A stretch of 58,680 nucleotides of DNA from a virus: positions 1-58,680 of IMG/VR virus record IMGVR_UViG_3300036911_000012; one strand, written 5' to 3'. Made by a program: the position numbers and the translations under genes. The number at the start of each line of letters is the position of its first letter. Within the stretch, counting starts at the first letter, position 1. Below the pieces are notes generated by a model. It was not told where the DNA came from. It did not search any database and saw only the letters and a program-made list of their open reading frames with translations. Of the stretch, positions 5,493-58,650 are shown in pieces.

Positions 5493-6269
5493 ATGGGCTT
5501 CCTGCATGAGACGCTAGTACGTCGAGTCGTCTTATGGTGCGAGAACGAGCGCGACGCTATGGCGCAGGCTATCCTCACGCCCATGGATGCGCACAAGGTG
5601 TATGCTGCGCTTGTGCCCAACAAGCGCGACGCTGTGGCGTTGGCGCATGTGGGGAGCATGTACCGGGCGGGATGCAAATCGCAGTGGGGTGGCCAACTGA
5701 CGGGGATGGAGTGTGGGGTGGAGGCGCGCATTACGTTCTGTGGCGACGATATGCGGGGCCTGTTTATCTTTCCGGTCGGGAATGGGTATGAGTACATGCC
5801 TTGCCTGAATGTGCGCGACCTAGGCGAAGCCCGCCAGGACCTTGAGGCGGCGGTGAGCGCTGTAATGGAGTGGAATGCGGCGCTCCGGGCGTTCCACTGG
5901 GTCGACAGTCATGCCCAGAGTATAGACGACTTCACACATTTTACGCCGTGGGTGGCAGACTCGTTCGGTGAGGGGCGTATCAACGTGGCGGAGTTCGATG
6001 CTGGCTTCAGGCGAGACACGCACTCTTGCAAACTTGAGATCGCGCGGCTATTAAAGCGTACACCTCCTAAGAACACGCGCCCCATGCCCAAGGAGTTGCT
6101 GAGCGTTTGCCGGGGGATCAGCGCACTGCGCGGGCGTATGAAACTCTTGGAGCGCAGAGAGTTTAGAAGCCCCCAGCCGGGTATGTGCGCCGTTGAATCG
6201 TTGGACGTTAGCACTGCGGTTGACACGCGCTTTGCGGAGGTAGCTGCGGCGTGGGCGTGGGTGAGTTAG
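5493..6269 (+). CDS. Hypothetical protein, 258 aa
   Basis: I do not recognise this protein. It starts 3 bases after the VWA gene, using GGAG from the palindrome copy at 5474, so translation is probably coupled. It has a Cys/Trp-containing N-terminal half (about 1-130) and a basic C-terminal part (residues 175-235, many Arg and Lys). The tight linkage to the MoxR/VWA pair suggests it serves the same process. Confidence 0.75.
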   Translation: MGFLHETLVRRVVLWCENERDAMAQAILTPMDAHKVYAALVPNKRDAVALAHVGSMYRAGCKSQWGGQLTGMECGVEARITFCGDDMRGLFIFPVGNGYEYMPCLNVRDLGEARQDLEAAVSAVMEWNAALRAFHWVDSHAQSIDDFTHFTPWVADSFGEGRINVAEFDAGFRRDTHSCKLEIARLLKRTPPKNTRPMPKELLSVCRGISALRGRMKLLERREFRSPQPGMCAVESLDVSTAVDTRFAEVAAAWAWVS

Positions 6270-14632: not shown

Positions 14633-15889
14633 ATGGCACAAGATTTGGTTATCCCTGAGAATTTCGGCGCAATCTCCGCCGTCTTTCAGAACATCACGGT
14701 CGAAGACGACCTGGGTGAGGGCATCGTCGGAGGGTTTTCAGTCCTCGGATACCGGGGCAAGGTTTGGCGCGTCAAGCACAAGGGCGACGAGAACAATATT
14801 CTTGACGAGAACGGCAACCCCGTCCCTTCGGTCGAAGTGATTATTGTCAAGTCCTCGACGCATGTCTCCAAGCTGTTCTATAAGGACGGCTACCAGGACA
14901 ATTCGGAGGGCAAGCGCCCCGACTGCTTCTCCAGCAACGGCGTCTCCCCCGACGCTACGGTGCTCGCGCCCGTCGCTCCGGTGTGTGCGGCGTGCCCGAA
15001 CAACGCCTTCGGCTCTCGCGTCACTGACAACGGCAAGCCGGGCAAGGCGTGCTCGGATCACAAGCGTCTCGTTATCGTCCCGATGGACGACCCGGCGAAC
15101 GAACTGTTCGGCGGCCCCATGCTCCTGCGCGTACCGGCAGCGTCGCTTGCCGAAGTCTCCGCGTACGGAACCAAGGTCAAACAGTTGGGGTGGCCCTATT
15201 ACGCCATCGCGACTCGCGTCAAGTTCGACATCAACGAGGCGTTCCCCAAGCTGTTGTTCTCGCCCATTCGACCCTTGAACGACGACGAGGCCCGGCTTAT
15301 CATCGAGCTGCGCGAAGACCCGCGCGTGGCGCGTATCCTCAACGAGGAAGTGGAAGCTCTGCCCCCGGCTACTCCCGAGAGTAACGGCGGGTTCGAGCAG
15401 CCCCCTGCGGCGGCTCCTGCTCCTGCACGTCGTCCGCCTCCGCCGCCCGCCCAGGCCCGTCCCGCCGCCCCGGCTGCTACCCCCCCAGCCCCCCAGCCGA
15501 GGCCCGTCCAGCAGGCTCCCAAGCCCGTCCAGGCCCATCCTGCACCGCCACCTGCCCCCCAGGCTCCCAAGGCTGGGTTCAGCGGCAAGCCCGCTCCTGC
15601 GGCGGCTCCCGCCCCGGCTCCCAAGGCTGGTGGGTTCGGCCGTCCCGCTGGGGCTCCCGCCCCGGCTCCTCGTCCTGCTCCGACGACTATCGCCGGTGCG
15701 GTGGCGCAGCCCGCAGCGCGTCCTCCGACCACGCGTATGGCGCGTCCCGCCGCACCGGCCCCTGTCCATATTGAGGCCCCCGGCGAAGGCGACTACGAGG
15801 GGCCGGGAGACGGGACTTACTCCGAGGAGCAAGGCGAGGGGTTGCCTGCGGGGCTCGACGCCGAGCTGGACGGGTTGCTGAATATCTAG
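14633..15889 (+). CDS. Probable single-stranded DNA-binding protein, 418 aa
   Basis: An N-terminal beta-rich domain (about 1-235) contains a CAACPNN...GKACSDHK segment (about 120-145) suited to binding zinc. A long Pro/Ala linker (about 248-375) and an acidic C-terminal tail with a hydrophobic end (AELDGLLNI) follow. This layout is that of phage ssDNA-binding proteins, in which the acidic tail recruits partners. The location between helicase and primase-helicase genes supports it. Palindrome copies lie at 15369 and 15817. The identification rests on architecture and context, not a diagnostic motif. Confidence 0.65.
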   Translation: MAQDLVIPENFGAISAVFQNITVEDDLGEGIVGGFSVLGYRGKVWRVKHKGDENNILDENGNPVPSVEVIIVKSSTHVSKLFYKDGYQDNSEGKRPDCFSSNGVSPDATVLAPVAPVCAACPNNAFGSRVTDNGKPGKACSDHKRLVIVPMDDPANELFGGPMLLRVPAASLAEVSAYGTKVKQLGWPYYAIATRVKFDINEAFPKLLFSPIRPLNDDEARLIIELREDPRVARILNEEVEALPPATPESNGGFEQPPAAAPAPARRPPPPPAQARPAAPAATPPAPQPRPVQQAPKPVQAHPAPPPAPQAPKAGFSGKPAPAAAPAPAPKAGGFGRPAGAPAPAPRPAPTTIAGAVAQPAARPPTTRMARPAAPAPVHIEAPGEGDYEGPGDGTYSEEQGEGLPAGLDAELDGLLNI

Positions 15890-15980: not shown

Positions 15981-18854
15981 ATGGACTATACGCAGGCGAG
16001 GCAATACCTCGCAAAGGTGGTTCCGTGGGACGGTCGGAACTATGTCAGCATCCATTACAAAGTTGTGGGGAAGCACGGTCGTCCTATCCTGCCAGGGGTT
16101 CCCTCCTTAAACGTCGATGGCGCCATGGGCACGGTCAAGTACCGCGCGGGCACCGACGTTTATGTTTCTATGGCCAGCCAGTCCAAGGCTGACGAACGAA
16201 CTGCCCCTACCGGGCGCAAATACCTAGTTGCGATGCGCACGCTCGAAAACGTGGCGCTGCACAAGTCCTTGTACGTTGACATTGACGTGAAGGGCAAGGG
16301 GTACGATTCGACGGCCAGCGCCAAACGCGCGCTCCGCGACTTCCTGCTATGGAGCACCCTGCCGTCGCCCACAGTCATCGTGGAGTCCGGCACGGGGGGC
16401 TTGCATGTGTATTGGACGCTCGTAGACGCCGTGTCCATGGACGTGTGGCGTCCGCTGGCGTTCGCCCTGGTGGGGCTTGCGCAACAGTTCGGGTTGAAAT
16501 TCGACAGTCAGTGCAGCGTGGACCCGGTAAGGCTACTCCGGGTTCCAGACACGTTCAACCATAAAGCTGGCGGACCCTACCCGGTCAAACTGGTGTACCT
16601 CGCCAGCCACGATATTTTTATCGACAAACTCAAAGCAGTACTCGACGCATTCGTTCCCGAGAACCTGCCTACTCTTGCGAGTAATTCCGGTGGTGACGAT
16701 CTCTCGGCAGGTATAGTGCGTAACGCTCTCCCACCCTCGGACCCTGACCGGGTGGCCACGGTGTGTCCTATGTGGGCGAACGCGTTGGCGACAGGCGGAA
16801 ACGGTATACTCCAGCCACTGTGGATGCAGCACATTCGCTTGGCGACATGCTGTGAGAATGGACGGGACGTAGCGCATAGGCTATCGTGTGGCGACCCTAG
16901 ATATTCCAAGGATGAAACTGATGAAATATATGACCGACTTGTTCAAGAGCGTGTGGACAAGCCATCGATCGGACCCCCTCGGTGTGCGACGCTTAAGACG
17001 TCTGGCGCGTATGAGTGTGATAGTTGCGGGCATCTTGGTGCGAACCTTGTTCCTCTCAATCTTCCTGGGGCTTTTGCTCAGCGGACACCTGCTGGCATCC
17101 CTGTTGGGCGTGGCGACGATCTCCTTCCAGAGGGCTACATACGCGGGCCTGACGGCCATATTTATGGCTCTGAGTTGGACGAGACCACGCAGATAGAAAA
17201 GCGTGTGCTGGTATTCCCGTACATGATAATAGACCCATACGTTGAAGGGGGGCGGGAATACGCGGTGCATTTTACGACGGTGGAAGAAGGCAACGTGTAT
17301 AAGTCGGTTCGTATACCGTTTGTCAATTTGGCGGATAGAAACTCTTCCGCCAAGTCCCTCAGCGCAGAGGGCTTACCCATGAGAGTAACCGAGAGAGTGC
17401 AGGATTTCTTGACTAGCTTCCTAAAGAAACTTCGTGACTCCTCGGGCAGCATCGTGCGGTGCGAGCCTTTGGGTTGGCACTTGAAGGACGGCGACATTGA
17501 AGGGTTCGCCTACAACGGAGTGCTGCACACAACGACAGGAGAGAAAATTGCTCAGCGGTTGGACGCCACGACTCGACCGAACTACACGCCAACGGGGACG
17601 CCAGACGCGTGGATGGCCGCAGTGCGGATCATCAACTCGCAACGACGCCCAGCGCTGGATACGCTTATCCTTAGCGCGTTCTCGTCGCCGCTCCTCGCTC
17701 TTACAAATCAAGTTGGCGTTAGTATTGGTGGATGGTCGAATGAGTCGGGGGTGGGCAAGACAACTGCGCTGCAAATTGCATTGGGCGCTTGGGGGCACCC
17801 GATCCGAACAGGCGGCGGCCTCTCGGACACTGCTAACGCAACTTTTCACAGAGCTGGTCTCATTCGACACCTCCCTTTGGTTTGGGATGAAATCAAGACT
17901 CAGAAACAAACCTCCAACTTCCTAGAGACGATTTTCACCATGACAAGCGGCCTGGAGAAGGCTCGCCTCAATCGTTCTGCCAAGGCTCAGCACCAGGGCG
18001 CGTGGCAGAGCATACTTACTTACGCGAGTAATTCGTCAATGTCGGATGCGATAATCGAGCAGTCTCGCTCGACTACGGCGGGGCATGTGCGCGTTTTCGA
18101 GTTCCAAGTTCCGCGTGTCGACAACGTGGTGGCAGTCTCGACCATGGCGCGGTGCATGGACAAGCTGCGCGGCAACTACGGCCATGCCGGCGCAATCTAT
18201 GCGAAGTGGCTGGGGGCCAACCATGTATCGGCACGGGGGATTGTTGATAGAATATTTATGGACTTCGAGACCAAGCTCGTCGTCAAGGAAGATGAACGGT
18301 TGTGGAATGCCGCCATGGCCGCGACGCTGGCGGGCGGGTTCTTCGCCAACAAGCTCGGGCTGACGCAAGTCGATCTTCCCCTGCTGAGGGCATGGCTGGT
18401 ATCCGAGTTTCAGCGTATGCGCACGGCGAAGAATGTAGCGCCTAACGACTTCTCGAAGGAAATGAGCATCCTCAACGCGCTCGGCCAGTTCCTCAATGAG
18501 AAGCGCCCCGTCAACACCATACGAACTAACACCATACCCCCAGGCAAGGGCAAACCCCCGCCGAACAGCGTGCTCATTCTCAACGAGGGCACGTCTGCGG
18601 ATCGGCTCGGGGACCTGCATGTGCAGATCGCAGTCGGCCTCAAGGTCATACGTATCGCAGACTACGCGCTGACGGCGTGGTGCAAGAAAGAGAATATCCC
18701 CAAGAGTGCGATGGTTGAGGGCATGCGCTCTAAGCTGTCCGCGCGGTGGACTAGCTGCCGCTTGGGGTCGGGTACGCGGTTAGCCGGTTCGACGGTTCCA
18801 TGTTGGGAGCTATTGGTGGCTGGCACGCCGATTGACGATATCGTGGACTGGTGA
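15981..18854 (+). CDS. Primase-helicase fusion, 957 aa
   Basis: The N-terminal 210 residues look like an archaeo-eukaryotic-type or RepB-type primase domain: VDIDVKG with metal-binding Asp100/Asp102, then ESGTGGLHVYW at about 134-144. A Cys pair (CDSCG, about 347) may bind zinc. The C-terminal half has a P-loop (NESGVGKTT, Lys593) and the layout of DUF927-type helicases. It should unwind and prime DNA for the family A polymerase at 6538. The gene ends in a TGA overlapping the GTG start of the HNH gene. Palindrome copies lie at 16669, 17373 and 18016. Confidence 0.85.
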   Translation: MDYTQARQYLAKVVPWDGRNYVSIHYKVVGKHGRPILPGVPSLNVDGAMGTVKYRAGTDVYVSMASQSKADERTAPTGRKYLVAMRTLENVALHKSLYVDIDVKGKGYDSTASAKRALRDFLLWSTLPSPTVIVESGTGGLHVYWTLVDAVSMDVWRPLAFALVGLAQQFGLKFDSQCSVDPVRLLRVPDTFNHKAGGPYPVKLVYLASHDIFIDKLKAVLDAFVPENLPTLASNSGGDDLSAGIVRNALPPSDPDRVATVCPMWANALATGGNGILQPLWMQHIRLATCCENGRDVAHRLSCGDPRYSKDETDEIYDRLVQERVDKPSIGPPRCATLKTSGAYECDSCGHLGANLVPLNLPGAFAQRTPAGIPVGRGDDLLPEGYIRGPDGHIYGSELDETTQIEKRVLVFPYMIIDPYVEGGREYAVHFTTVEEGNVYKSVRIPFVNLADRNSSAKSLSAEGLPMRVTERVQDFLTSFLKKLRDSSGSIVRCEPLGWHLKDGDIEGFAYNGVLHTTTGEKIAQRLDATTRPNYTPTGTPDAWMAAVRIINSQRRPALDTLILSAFSSPLLALTNQVGVSIGGWSNESGVGKTTALQIALGAWGHPIRTGGGLSDTANATFHRAGLIRHLPLVWDEIKTQKQTSNFLETIFTMTSGLEKARLNRSAKAQHQGAWQSILTYASNSSMSDAIIEQSRSTTAGHVRVFEFQVPRVDNVVAVSTMARCMDKLRGNYGHAGAIYAKWLGANHVSARGIVDRIFMDFETKLVVKEDERLWNAAMAATLAGGFFANKLGLTQVDLPLLRAWLVSEFQRMRTAKNVAPNDFSKEMSILNALGQFLNEKRPVNTIRTNTIPPGKGKPPPNSVLILNEGTSADRLGDLHVQIAVGLKVIRIADYALTAWCKKENIPKSAMVEGMRSKLSARWTSCRLGSGTRLAGSTVPCWELLVAGTPIDDIVDW

Positions 18855-19171: not shown

Positions 19172-19372
19172 ATGGACGATGAGCCCGATAGGGTTGTGTT
19201 TGGCGGTTCCCTTGCAGGCAACCGCCAAATGGAGGGCGTGGAGAACGTACCGCTGAAAGAGGCGATACGGGTAGTTTGGGCGGCGGCGGATCGCGCCTTT
19301 GCGCCCGAGGAAATACGCGCGCTGATTGTCATAGTCGGGCACGCGTTTGCAGCAACCAACTCCGGGGAGTAG
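19172..19372 (+). CDS. Hypothetical protein, 66 aa
   Basis: A small acidic, mostly helical protein. It is translated from the GGAG of the palindrome copy at 19153, and its own stop TAG closes the next copy at 19357. Unknown family. Confidence 0.65.
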   Translation: MDDEPDRVVFGGSLAGNRQMEGVENVPLKEAIRVVWAAADRAFAPEEIRALIVIVGHAFAATNSGE

Positions 19373-51688: not shown

Positions 51689-54100
51689 TCAACCTCCGTA
51701 GGCCCATTGATACGTGCCTGAAACGTTCGTGCAACCCACGCGCTGCGAACTCGTGCCGGTCGAGGAAGGCACCCCAAGATACGTCGGCGAAGCCGGGGCG
51801 TTGCTTACGAACGCTTGCAACCCGACCAAATAAGCCAAGCACGAAGGCAGGGTTCCTCCAATTGTATAAGTTGGGTATATTGGAAGCGCAAAGCCTCCGC
51901 CGGCCTGATTGTAGTTGTTCTGCCCTGTTACCGTCGTTGTCGTGCCGGGCAGGAAATTGCTGTTATACGCTTCGTTGTTTACGAACACACTATTGCCAAA
52001 CGTCGCACTGGAAAACGTCTCATCTGGGCTGTTGGACCATGTGTTGTTTATAAACTGTAGATAGTTATTCGAACCGCTAAATGCAATTTGTTGATTGGCC
52101 GCATTCTCAAAGTCCGACGACTGCACAACGCCATTCGACGTTCCTACGAACGACAAGTTGTTGTAATTACCTTCTATATCAGCGCCAATTATCGACCACG
52201 CTTGCCCCCCGCCAATCGCGATAGCCGCACCTGCCAACTGATTCCCGCTATTAAAGATCCCATCTCCCCATATACGCGCCGCGTTACAACTGCTACCAGT
52301 TGAGCAATCAATCGCATTCCCGTTGGTGTTAACTATCAAATTGTTGGTGATATACGGTGCGTAGGATGATGAAATAGCCAGTCCAACGTTCCATCTACCA
52401 TCTATCGTGACGCGATCGACCACGAAATCGCTATTGTTCCCGACGCGGATTGCGATACCACTTGCCGCACCGTACTGATCCAGCCGCATGTTCATTACCG
52501 AGAAACTCGTATATGCGGCGTAGTTTTGTGCGGGGGATACATACTTAATGCCTGTTGTTTGCGTAGGAGCTTCCCATCGGAGTGCCGTGCAGCCGCCTTG
52601 ACCGGAAATATTATACAGCCCGTAGTCGCTCTCTAGTAGCGTAGCAGTCAACAGCGCCGTCCCGCACGGGAGTTGCAGTTTCGTTCCCGACGAAGCCGTG
52701 AGCGCGGCCTGAAGCGCCACAGTGTCATCGTGCGTCGCCAGTCCGCCGGAGAGGGTCTGACTTGATGCGTTCGCCAACACGAGAGTGTTCGTGCCGCCGC
52801 CAGAAACGATAGTCGAGAGCAAAAACCCATTCGTCGCCGTCGCGCTCGGCGCTAGCGCCAGCCAATCCGGGCGGTGTGAATCGTTTTCATTGTTGTCTTT
52901 CCATGTCGAGGTCGAAGTGACCCCGACGAATTGCATGAGGTTTAGCGCAGCGCCGCTGGAGACTGTCGTCAGGTTGAACGTGGCGCCGGTGCCCGCCCCT
53001 GACGAACTGGCTTGTCCGACTGTCGATGCCGCAGGTTCCCAATAGTACCCCGGAGCCGTTACCGTCACCGTCGCGACCGCAGAGCCCGAGAGCGTCGCTA
53101 CAGTCAGCACCGTGCCATCTGTGAGCGTTATGGTGTCCCCGACCGCGTACCCGGAGCCCCCCGCCGCCACGTTCGCCGCGCTCACGACGAAAATGCTGCG
53201 TGACACGACGTAACTCGACGGAATCGTCCCCGTCCCTGGGGGGTTCCACGAAATTGTATTATAGTTTGTCGGTGACAGCAGAGCGTTGCCCGTCGAGACG
53301 CTGACCGGCGTTATCGCAGGCCCGACTCCGCCGTAAGCATCGACGGCTTGCACGGTATAATAATACGTCGTGCTACCTGTCGCCCCCGTTGGCGTTATCG
53401 TCAGCCCTGTTGGCGGGTTGAGCGAGAATGTCGGACCGCAGCCATTGACGCGAACCCCCTCGCCGGTCACAAAATCAATCGCGGCGCTGAGCGATATGTT
53501 CGCCGAGCCCGAGGCGCACGTTGCCGACACGCTTTGACCCGACATAGAGACGTTGGTCAGTGCGACCGGGAGCGGCTGGTAGAGCGCTGCGCCACCCAAA
53601 GGCGTCGCCCATGTGCCGTCGCCGCGCCAAAACGTCGTCGATGCAGCCCCCGTCCCACTGTTGAGATTGGCGACCGGAAGATTGCCGGTGACCTGTGTCC
53701 CGAGGTTGACGGTCGCAGCCGTCGCCAGCGCGCCGAATGCAACCCCGCCGGTTTTTGTGCATGCCAGCGCCAATGATCCTGATGAGTTTGTGCAATCTCC
53801 GGTATGAGCGGGTTCCTGCGCGGCCTGTAGCGTGCCCGTCGCCTGCGTCGACAGGTTGACCGTGGTCTGCGTCCCTGCATATATCTGGGCATCCAGGGTC
53901 GTTAAATTCGTCAGGATGCTGTTGAACGTCGCGCCCGGCACGCGCCCGAGCCCGTTCGTCCAGGGCACAGCATTGATCTGGTTCTGCACCGACGTGGGGG
54001 TGACCTGCGCCTGTGCGCAGAGGCTACTCCCAAGAGTAAGCGCCAGGGCCGCCACAAGCGCCATAACACGCGCCAATATTTCAGTCACGAACGAGCCCAT
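51689..54100 (-). CDS. Large tailspike/fibre protein with Sec signal peptide, 803 aa
   Basis: The ATG at 54100 follows GGAG 8 bases upstream and gives a signal peptide (about 1-32, ending AQA before Gln). A short N-terminal module is nearly identical at DNA level to that of the gene at 54157. Then come Gly/Thr-rich strands, a fibronectin-like segment near 230-290 and a right-handed beta-helix (about 500-720) with repeated short strands rich in Asn, Gly and Ile. This is the architecture of a receptor-binding or depolymerising tailspike. The shared N-terminus may be a common virion anchor. Confidence 0.75.
53907..54055 (-). repeat. 149-bp duplicated fibre N-terminal module, copy 1
   Basis: 148 of 149 bases match 55283-55431. 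The block encodes the last part of the signal peptide and about 35 following residues of both fibre genes, and includes one palindrome copy (54024). Confidence 0.97.
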
Positions 54101-56639: not shown

Positions 56640-57206
56640 AAATCCGGGTCATATGGTTGAAGGGTCCCTAAAGGCGAGGTCCCCCTGCCCCTACCCCGGT
56701 CCAGGCGCCCCGCCGACCCTGGGGGGTACATTCCCCCTCCCTAGGACAGAGAGACGGTCTGCGCCTACTCGCAAGAGTAAGCTCCCCCTCCCTCTGGTAG
56801 ACACCGGACGGTCCCCGCTGCAATCGGGACTGGCGCCAGACAAAGGCGTCCCCAGACTGACCAAGCCTAAGGGTGAGCTAAGACGCTCAGGCAGTCGCCC
56901 GTAAAAGCTGATGAAGTGCAGCAGGGGGAAACTAGAACGGAGCGCGGACAAGTGGCGCTTTCTCCCACAAGGAAGGTTAAGACCTTCCGGGAGCCGAACC
57001 CCGGAAGGTCAAACTGAAAAGGCGCCAAAGTCTGCAAAAACTCGATATGGCACGGCGAAGCAAGCCTACCCCTGCAACGCCCCTAATCGCATCCCGCGAG
57101 CCGCTAACAATCGAGAGAACACGAATGACCTGAGCGGAAGCCTGGGGAACAATGCACAACAAAGACCCAACATGAAAGCCGGGGGCCTAGCAAGCTCCCG
57201 GCCTTT
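56640..57206 (+). ncRNA. Candidate large structured RNA or leader, no convincing gene
   Basis: A 570-base stretch with no credible protein gene but many complementary segments. 56962-56993 can form CTCCC/GGGAG plus GGAAGGT/ACCTTCC, while 56981-56990 can pair with 57001-57010 (10 bp perfect); the two exclude each other, as in RNA switches. Other pairs: CTCGAT 57041 with ATCGAG 57110, CAGACT near 56853 with AGTCTG near 57029, AGCGC 56941 with GCGCT 56954, and GCCGGG 57178 with CCCGGC 57197. A-rich single-stranded linkers lie between. I see no known RNA class (not tRNA, tmRNA or RNase P). Confidence 0.35.
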
Positions 57207-57250
57207 ACATAGTAAGCCTTACTCTTGGAGTAAGGCTTACTATGTAAAGG
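57202..57250. repeat. Perfect 23-bp-arm hairpin centred on a palindrome copy
   Basis: 57202-57224 and 57228-57250 are perfect inverted repeats with a 3-base loop (TTG). The inner part is the palindrome in its 15-bp form. The right arm ends in AAAGG, the ribosome-binding site of the gene at 57259, so the RNA hairpin would hide that site. It could also form a cruciform or bind a dimeric protein. Confidence 0.95.
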
Positions 57251-57258
57251 AGAACGTC

Positions 57259-57534
57259 ATGAAAAAGCTTTATGGAGAACAAGACTACCTCGCCAAGACG
57301 CTAAAAAGCGTCGAGCCGGTCGAAGTCACGCGCAACGCGCGCAAAGTGCGCGCTTGCGGCGTTATCTCGACTGCCCAGCATACTGGGCATGTGATGTTTG
57401 CGCGCGCGATCAAGGTCGCGCCGCGCACGCTCAAAAACGCCAAGAATGCGTCGTCCAAGGGGGCGGCGTCGGAAGTGAGGAAAATTTCTATAGAGGAGTA
57501 CCGCGCAACATCCATCTGGGCCTCTTGGGAGTAA
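57259..57534 (+). CDS. Small basic protein, 91 aa, behind the large hairpin
   Basis: A Lys/Arg/Ala-rich protein with a probable helical, DNA- or RNA-binding character (NARKVRACG, RTLKNAKNASSKG). AAAGGAG lies 5 bases before the ATG and is partly inside the 49-base hairpin, so translation is probably controlled. Its stop is part of a degenerate palindrome copy (57519-57534). Unknown family. Confidence 0.65.
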   Translation: MKKLYGEQDYLAKTLKSVEPVEVTRNARKVRACGVISTAQHTGHVMFARAIKVAPRTLKNAKNASSKGAASEVRKISIEEYRATSIWASWE

Positions 57535-58158
57535 GTCAAGAAACCCTCCTATGCGGCGTACGAAAACGAGACGCAAAGCCTTCGGATGAACTGAGCGCGC
57601 CAGCCAAATATGTAATGGAGTGCGAACCTTACATATTTAACGGGTACACTCGTTTGGCACAAAAAAGCCACAATTGGGCATCGCAACATTACAAGTTGCG
57701 TCAACCTTGCGTGCTTGAAGTTGATTGTGGCAAAAGTGCGGCCGTAAGGGCGGCAGCGCTGTGCTAAGTCGTTGTCTTTGTTATCTTGTATATGTTATTC
57801 TTATTAGTAATTAATAAATTCATACTGTTTCTATACGAAGTTCGTGATAAGCTCGTACGAGCTGGTTGATAGCGCACCTTACCGCCCTTATGTGTGTTTT
57901 TCGGTCTTAGAATAAACAATTAAAAATTCCCCTGCAACATCAAACACTTGCAAAATCTTATTCTAAACCCCCTCTGACCATCGCATGGTAAAACCGTGAC
58001 AAGCCACGACATGCGCACGGTTTGCGCAACCTTTTCGCACGCAAAAGTAAAACACTTGTACCCCCTTGACATGCCTCTCTTGCCTGTTTATGTATAAAAC
58101 CATAAGCAGGGGCCATCACGGCGTACGCCGAGCGTACACCTTCCGCGAGAGACATACC
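57535..58158. other. AT-rich intergenic control region
   Basis: 624 bp without a convincing gene, clearly more AT-rich than the rest from 57775 on. It contains an ATATGTAA/TTACATAT inverted pair near 57605-57635, a 14-bp palindrome at 57850-57863 (AGCTCGTACGAGCT), a 9-bp inverted repeat (57907-57915 with 57958-57966) and the promoter at 58066. AT richness and nested repeats suit a replication origin or control region; not proven. Confidence 0.5.
58066..58094 (+). promoter_or_regulatory. Promoter of the HTH regulator gene
   Basis: TTGACA at 58066-58071 is followed after 17 bases by TATGTA (58089-58094); TATAAA at 58093 is an alternative -10 with a 21-base spacer. It reads into the regulator gene at 58159, which sits at the end of the AT-rich region. 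Confidence 0.55.
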
Positions 58159-58650
58159 ATGAGCGTACGGGAAACGCTAGTAACGCGTGCATACGTTGCG
58201 GAATGCTTAGGCGTTTCGCAACAAACGATTGCGAGATGGGAACGCAGCGGCGTATCACCCATACGAGCGAGGCGCACAGTTCGTACGAAGCAACTGCGCT
58301 ACACCCTTGCCGACATCGAAGCCTACAAAGAGTGGCTGGCGACCGAGCAGCTTGAGGAAATTCCCCTGCCGCCCAAACCCGCCACGTCGGCCAAGGCAAA
58401 GCCCGCAACCTTACAAGTTGCAAGCGCTCCCGCCGACTTGTCGGCTGTGTTAGACTATCCCGTTGAACTATTAACAGATGAACAACGTGGATTGTTTGAC
58501 ACGAAGATGAACTGGTCGATCTCGCAAGGCGACTCCCAAGAGTCGGCTTGGAACTGGGCGCGTAACTTCGTGTGCGCGCAATTCCTGCTGGGCGAATACG
58601 CTGGCGGGGTATACAATTCGCCCGACGAAGACTTAGCTGCGTATGAGTAG
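58159..58650 (+). CDS. MerR/excisionase-type HTH regulator, 163 aa
   Basis: Residues 6-60 form a winged HTH of the MerR/excisionase kind: TRAYVAECLGVSQQTIARWERSG (with SQQTIARWE as recognition helix), an Arg-rich wing, then YTLADIEAYKEWL. A Pro/Ala/Lys linker (about 70-95) leads to a helical C-terminal part. It has its own promoter and contains a diverged palindrome copy (58530). As a DNA-binding protein beside the control region it is a candidate reader of the genome-wide palindrome. Confidence 0.75.
   Translation: MSVRETLVTRAYVAECLGVSQQTIARWERSGVSPIRARRTVRTKQLRYTLADIEAYKEWLATEQLEEIPLPPKPATSAKAKPATLQVASAPADLSAVLDYPVELLTDEQRGLFDTKMNWSISQGDSQESAWNWARNFVCAQFLLGEYAGGVYNSPDEDLAAYE

Follow-up and report, generated by a model that had tools for sequence, protein, structure and literature searches.

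The leader, the hairpin and the small basic gene

The DNA analyzed here, referred to as the window, is the whole of a 58,680-bp virus record (IMG/VR IMGVR_UViG_3300036911_000012), in which a structured, RNA-like non-coding leader of about 560 nt (56640 to 57201, plus strand) runs directly into a perfect hairpin (57202 to 57250, plus strand). The right arm of this hairpin ends in AAAGG of a Shine-Dalgarno (SD) sequence, AAAGGAG (57246 to 57252, plus strand), which lies 6 nt from the ATG of a 91-aa basic open reading frame (57259 to 57534, plus strand; net charge +9, pI 10.1). The polymerase, the terminase, and most other core genes of the genome are syntenic with those of Rhizobium phage RHph_TM3_14A, with identities of 63% for the major capsid protein, 51% for the terminase, and 43% for polA. 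Relatives number at least 80 among IMG/VR contigs and also include two Bradyrhizobium isolates. Two contigs share the genome in Bradyrhizobium sp. 139, the structural half closing one of 61 kb and the early half opening another of 170 kb, as would be expected of a putative integrated prophage.

The arms of the hairpin (57202 to 57224 and 57228 to 57250) are complementary over all 23 nt, without any G-U pair, and are separated by the 3-nt loop TTG. At the apex lies the palindrome core TTACTC-TTG-GAGTAA (57219 to 57233), the 15-bp, spacer-3 form of a motif found throughout the genome; three copies in the window, this one included, are perfect (12/12). The sequence thereby confirms the perfect arms, the loop, and the center on the 15-bp form that a first-pass annotation of this DNA had described. 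That annotation had also taken the hairpin for the strongest extension of the motif in the genome; where further copies of the palindrome form perfect hairpins, the arms are 7 to 10 bp. The hairpin is the longest inverted repeat in the whole window, whereas the longest perfect hairpins in eight first-order Markov simulations of the window reached 9 to 11 bp. Folding of the 91-nt end region gives -53.0 kcal/mol as RNA (z = -9.6), and the end region folded as DNA gives z = -9.8. Within the arms, four half-sites alternate between AGTAA and TTACT, and a GC-rich hairpin, GCCGGGGGC-CTAGCAA-GCTCCCGGC (57178 to 57202, plus strand), stands directly 5' of the 23-bp hairpin.

The structured region of some 570 bases reported before the hairpin is likewise recovered, as the leader of about 560 nt: positions 56640 to 57275 fold with a minimum free energy of -264 kcal/mol and a z score of -9.0 against 20 shuffles. 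In the frame of the 91-aa ORF, which is its only long open frame, the leader has a codon score of -0.002, and the ORF itself scores 0.30, compared with 0.20 to 0.37 for six other genes in the window, with negative scores in its five other frames. By codon use, only the ORF resembles coding sequence. A longer ORF of 207 aa that runs through the hairpin (56911 to 57534) was rejected, as its leader part scores as non-coding and it has no clear SD. Rfam covariance models gave zero matches in the window at the gathering score, and a relaxed Rfam scan at the hairpin returned only microRNA hairpin models far below their cutoffs; microRNA identity was rejected, such matches being chance ones expected of any perfect hairpin.

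A copy of the palindrome, CTACTC-GCAA-GAGTAA (56765 to 56780), lies near the 5' end of the leader. Positional counterparts of the leader are present in relatives, which carry their own palindrome at the leader 5' end beside a C-rich box. No relative matches the window leader significantly at the nucleotide level, so the case for homology is made by synteny, position, and architecture. The C-rich box, CTCCC-N-TTCCCTAGG-TGTAGG, follows the leader 5' palindrome within 56700 to 56800 of the window, with counterparts in L003, L014, L016, L019, and L204, and appears to be duplicated in the window and in the Bradyrhizobium prophage b1.

The first-pass annotation had described the hairpin as hiding a ribosome-binding site, and this stands in part: according to the pairing probabilities, AAAGG of the SD is held in the stem and the final AG is free, such that only part of the SD is hidden. 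The wider proposal, a regulatory hairpin that closes a structured leader and sits at the ribosome-binding site of a gene for a small basic protein, is supported. Searches of the viral_contigs and phages sets found no relative of the 91-aa protein. AlphaFold models of this protein (pLDDT of 45) and of a 163-aa helix-turn-helix (HTH) protein (58159 to 58650; pLDDT of 56) were both too poor to use. Downstream of the 91-aa ORF lies an AT-rich non-coding stretch (57770 to 57960), a putative origin region on the basis of its sequence, and AT-rich or repeat-rich stretches 3' of the first ORF are present also in the Rhizobium phage, the Bradyrhizobium prophage b3, and G010. Direct repeats of about 80 to 100 bp containing CAATTGTGGCAAAATTATGTGGATTTACACAATC occur 3' of the first ORF at 5700 to 5880 of L184 and 1 to 200 of L185 and are possibly iterons of an origin.

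A palindrome repeated through the genome

The palindrome TTACTC-N3/4-GAGTAA recurs about 60 times along the 58.7 kb of this phage; counting the spacer-4 sites that match at 10 or more of the 12 positions gives 58, compared with about 1 expected in simulation. Both strands carry copies, some of them within genes, and the mismatches include A-A, G-A, and T-T without, by eye, any clear G-U surplus on the message strand; in these respects, the palindrome behaves more like a DNA site. Candidates for a protein that binds it are the 163-aa HTH protein, which has weak HTH matches, and the 91-aa protein. No literature specific to the palindrome or to these phages was found.

Among the spacer-4 sites (e.g., those at 1623, 4135, and 23227), 36 carry exactly one mismatch, 21 carry two, and a single one is perfect; the mismatched positions vary, and perfect copies are far fewer than independent mismatches would give. 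With the same consensus, G013 has 13 perfect copies. In many copies, the right half also serves as the SD for the gene that follows, as in GGAGTAAtaccATG, with overlaps of this kind at 1623, 4135, 5474, 11008, and 19153 of the window and at 19176 and 20440 of L003. An ATG follows within 2 to 16 nt at 24 of 63 window sites, compared with 18% of random positions. Two copies, at 54024 and 55400, have identical flanks (gcgcagaggcTACTCCCAAGAGTAagcgccaggg), which suggests a recent duplication. Runs of degenerate hexamers are a further type of repeat, with GGCTCT/GGCGAT/GGCTAT at 1977 to 2250 of the window and GGTCTAGGTCTGG at 15545 to 15675 of L206 (G028).

Half-sites differ per lineage (TTACCT, TTACCC, TTACCG, TCACTA, TCACTC, TTCCTC, and TTCCCC), and lineage-specific palindromes were noted in L003, L010, L011, and L183 to L226. 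The wider surprise is that every phage lineage has its own version, as if binding specificity diversifies among lineages. L045, a distant relative within a Magnetomicrobium genome bin, has GTGCG-N4-CGCAC 18 times in 21 kb, possibly another palindrome lineage. KPP25 was rejected as a palindrome-bearing relative, sharing the polymerase but having no over-represented palindrome.

The boundary between leader and first gene in relatives

The boundary before the first rightward gene was located in relatives mostly by synteny or by the lineage palindrome, and a hairpin was not required. The loci were those of the Rhizobium phage, L014, L019, L016, L010, L011, b1, b3, G022, G032, G023, G024, G010, G009, and G013, with G008 seen later. 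In most relatives inspected, a stem-loop ends the leader close 5' of the first small ORF, as in RHph_TM3_14A, L014, L016, L019, the Bradyrhizobium prophages b1 and b3, G022, G032, G009, G010, and G013. The paired length of the long stems is mostly 16 to 25 bp, with 8 + 9 bp in the Rhizobium phage, where the stem occupies 18142 to 18192, and in L014, 11 + 10 in L019, 21 in L016, 25 in b1, 9 + 11 in G022, and 20 in both G032 and G009, and these stems are imperfect, with G-U pairs and internal loops. Weaker or different arrangements are a 10-bp stem plus a palindrome hairpin in L010, 19 bp with interruptions in b3 and an interrupted stem in G010 (z of about -2 for each), an 11-bp hairpin about 30 nt upstream of the ATG region in G013, and a branched outer stem in G024. 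No clear long stem is found at the boundary in L011, G008, or G023. SD-adjacent stem-loops returned by an automatic scan in L213, L186, L188, and L206 were discarded, as they follow structural or other genes outside the leader.

The relation of the stem to the SD and the palindrome varies. In the window, G009, and L016, the foot of the long stem takes in all or part of the SD; occlusion is not universal, since the SD lies just outside the stem in the Rhizobium phage and L014. A palindrome copy is at or near the boundary in G010, G013, G024, G032, L010, and L011, some loci having been chosen for a palindrome near the ATG, so that the sampling favors this arrangement, and it covers the SD in G010, G013, and G024. 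Only the window and G009 have the palindrome within the stem. In G010, G013, G024, and G032, the stem-loop and an SD-overlapping palindrome copy are adjacent but separate, and the palindrome is therefore not the general purpose of the stem; the Rhizobium phage, L014, and b1 have the stem-loop without a palindrome. First ORFs encode basic products in 8 of 10 translated cases (pI 10.1 to 12.0) and acidic ones in G032 and L016. As they are also mostly unrelated in sequence, a fixed basic-protein autoregulator is not the general rule. At the leader end of G010 (L184, 5319 to 5373), three half-sites, GGTAAC..GTTACC..GGTAAA, allow two alternative pairings that exclude each other, one of which covers the SD.

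G009 (IMGVR_UViG_3300021477_000011) combines the same elements in a leader that has no sequence match to that of the window. Its 20-bp hairpin carries an unrelated palindrome of its own, TTACCC-ACGC-GGGTAA, at the apex; GAGGG of its SD is fully paired in the hairpin foot; a GC hairpin similar to that at 57178 to 57202 of the window stands directly 5'; and its first ORF encodes 71 aa with a net charge of +17. G009 therefore looks like an independent copy of the design. Because stem and palindrome are joined in G009 and adjacent but separate in G010, G013, G024, and G032, the most plausible view of the window hairpin is that the terminal stem of the leader and a copy of the palindrome have merged in it.

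Compensatory changes in the arms, proposed earlier as a check on the hairpin, are found in the stem-loops of relatives at the same position. Over nine inner pairs, the Rhizobium phage differs by double compensatory changes at two from L014, at three from L019, and at five from L016, with no broken pair in the inner helix of these Rhizobium-type leaders, and b1 and G022 differ by double changes at three of nine outer pairs, although such a hand-registered comparison leans toward structure by construction. In an automatic alignment of four sequences, in which the L016 register is off, 89.7% of cells are paired, compared with 83.4% when shuffled and 18 to 49% when slid. Judged from these sequences, structure rather than sequence is conserved at the boundary, and the stem-loop appears to be under selection as RNA structure, a statement that concerns the stems of relatives, the searches having turned up no close relative that keeps the 91-aa gene and with which the arms of the window could be compared.

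Proposed function and known systems

On balance, we consider the hairpin to be probably a cis-acting RNA stem-loop that ends a structured early leader and gates the first early gene, encoding a small basic protein. The leader would be transcribed as one RNA, and the stem would lower translation, since it pairs AAAGG of the SD and would block ribosome access; as AG is free, translation should be reduced and not abolished. A trans-acting event would then relieve the stem, most likely a cut by host RNase III within the duplex of roughly two turns, which would free the SD and split the leader RNA from the message. Because most stems span about two turns, their sequence is free, and RNase III precedents exist, we propose that the stem gates translation and that RNase III, or some other trans factor, opens it; the palindrome would let its binding protein add further control. 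The window stem may have been built from, or have absorbed, a copy of the genome-wide palindrome, and it is conceivable, as the least certain step, that the palindrome-reading protein also binds the hairpin in autoregulation.

A narrower reading, which overlaps with this gate, is that the hairpin serves purely in RNase III processing or mRNA stability, with no role for SD occlusion or the palindrome. Most stems span about two helical turns and are free in sequence (about 17 to 25 bp in most relatives), the pattern expected of a site for a double-strand-specific nuclease; the SD is just outside the stem in the Rhizobium phage and L014; and T7 and lambda offer precedents (PMC5371410). As a complete account it is nevertheless unlikely, if still worth serious consideration, given the SD in the stem foot of the window and G009 and the palindrome covering the SD in G010, G013, and G024. 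Slightly less probable is a DNA operator, in which the hairpin would be a high-affinity compound site for a dimeric palindrome binder controlling transcription at the boundary of leader and ORF, with RNA folding incidental. The roughly 60 copies on both strands and inside genes, their lack of a clear wobble preference, the copies at or near six of the boundaries, and the four alternating half-sites in the arms are consistent with this, but the arms reach 8 bp past the 15-bp operator on each side, the G-U pairs and internal loops of relatives fit RNA, and the stem-loops without a palindrome in the Rhizobium phage, L014, and b1 argue that the stem is retained independently of the palindrome. It could be speculated, doubtful as this is, that the first-ORF product binds the palindrome both as leader RNA and as genomic DNA, with leader, protein, and sites changing specificity together; there would then be an undescribed leader RNA of 0.3 to 0.6 kb, the terminal stem-loop and lineage palindrome would form one switch, and the first-ORF product would be fast evolving.

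The origin cruciform or replication element also suggested by the first-pass annotation is improbable. The perfect arms are stable as DNA, their lack of G-U pairs is what a DNA-level origin would also produce, and AT-rich or repeat-rich stretches lie 0.3 to 0.8 kb downstream in several relatives, but the relatives' stem-loops differ in sequence and are of the RNA type, imperfect, with G-U pairs and internal loops, and the hairpin is tied to the SD and ORF, with the origin-like repeats elsewhere, 3' of the ORF. Even less credence is due to a young template-switch inverted repeat or an assembly artifact without function, for which the perfect arms without G-U, the single metagenome record, and a search that found no second copy of the hairpin could be cited, as independent records, among them the cultured Rhizobium phage and isolate prophages, show this position and architecture again. 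An intrinsic terminator, to which a strong hairpin closing a leader might point, is the most remote of these readings, a U-tract being absent on both strands and the hairpin not being among the terminators listed by a terminator scan.

If the gate is real, a widespread and largely uncultured clade, spanning a Rhizobium phage isolate, Bradyrhizobium prophages, and dozens of environmental contigs, would share an undescribed early-control region, made up of a structured leader RNA absent from Rfam, a stem conserved where leader and gene meet, and a rapidly recoded palindrome repeated through the genome. Isolated Rhizobium phages make the model directly testable.

Several known systems resemble parts of this arrangement. 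GOLLD and ROOL, large ornate RNAs of phages and bacteria, are, like the leader, long structured non-coding RNAs in phage genomes (PMC12286853); the leader differs in matching no Rfam model at the gathering or relaxed threshold. The stoperators of cluster A mycobacteriophages are asymmetric, lie mostly in one orientation, and have known repressors (PMC6550527). They share with the palindrome the presence of tens of short genome-wide sites (58 spacer-4 copies here, as for a short operator with many genomic copies) and a motif that shifts between related phages (PMC6550527). The sites in the window differ in being palindromic and on both strands, and for their cognate repressor there are candidates only.

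The lambda N gene is the first early gene, encodes a small basic protein, and has a structured leader with a long stem-loop near the SD. The window has the same order of first early gene, small basic protein, and long stem-loop close to the SD, but its leader is longer, and its 91-aa protein is unrelated to any family searched, with no PHROG or Pfam match that would make it an N homologue. RNase III is known to open occluded ribosome-binding sites in lambda cIII and E. coli adhE and to process T7 early RNAs as well as the leader of lambda N (PMC5371410). A long, mostly uninterrupted RNA stem beside a ribosome-binding site, as in RNase III leaders, is found here (23 bp, and mostly 17 to 25 bp in relatives). 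The likeness to cIII and adhE (PMC5371410) lies in a long stem whose foot contains the SD, wholly or in part, as seen in the window, G009, and L016; in the Rhizobium phage and L014, the SD is free. The early RNase III sites of T7 share with the clade a two-turn stem of variable sequence, often with an internal loop, between leader and gene; the clade differs in having a single boundary site instead of a series between genes, and RNase III processing here would be by analogy. By these comparisons, the window hairpin most likely works in the manner of the lambda N and cIII leaders or of the T7 RNase III sites.
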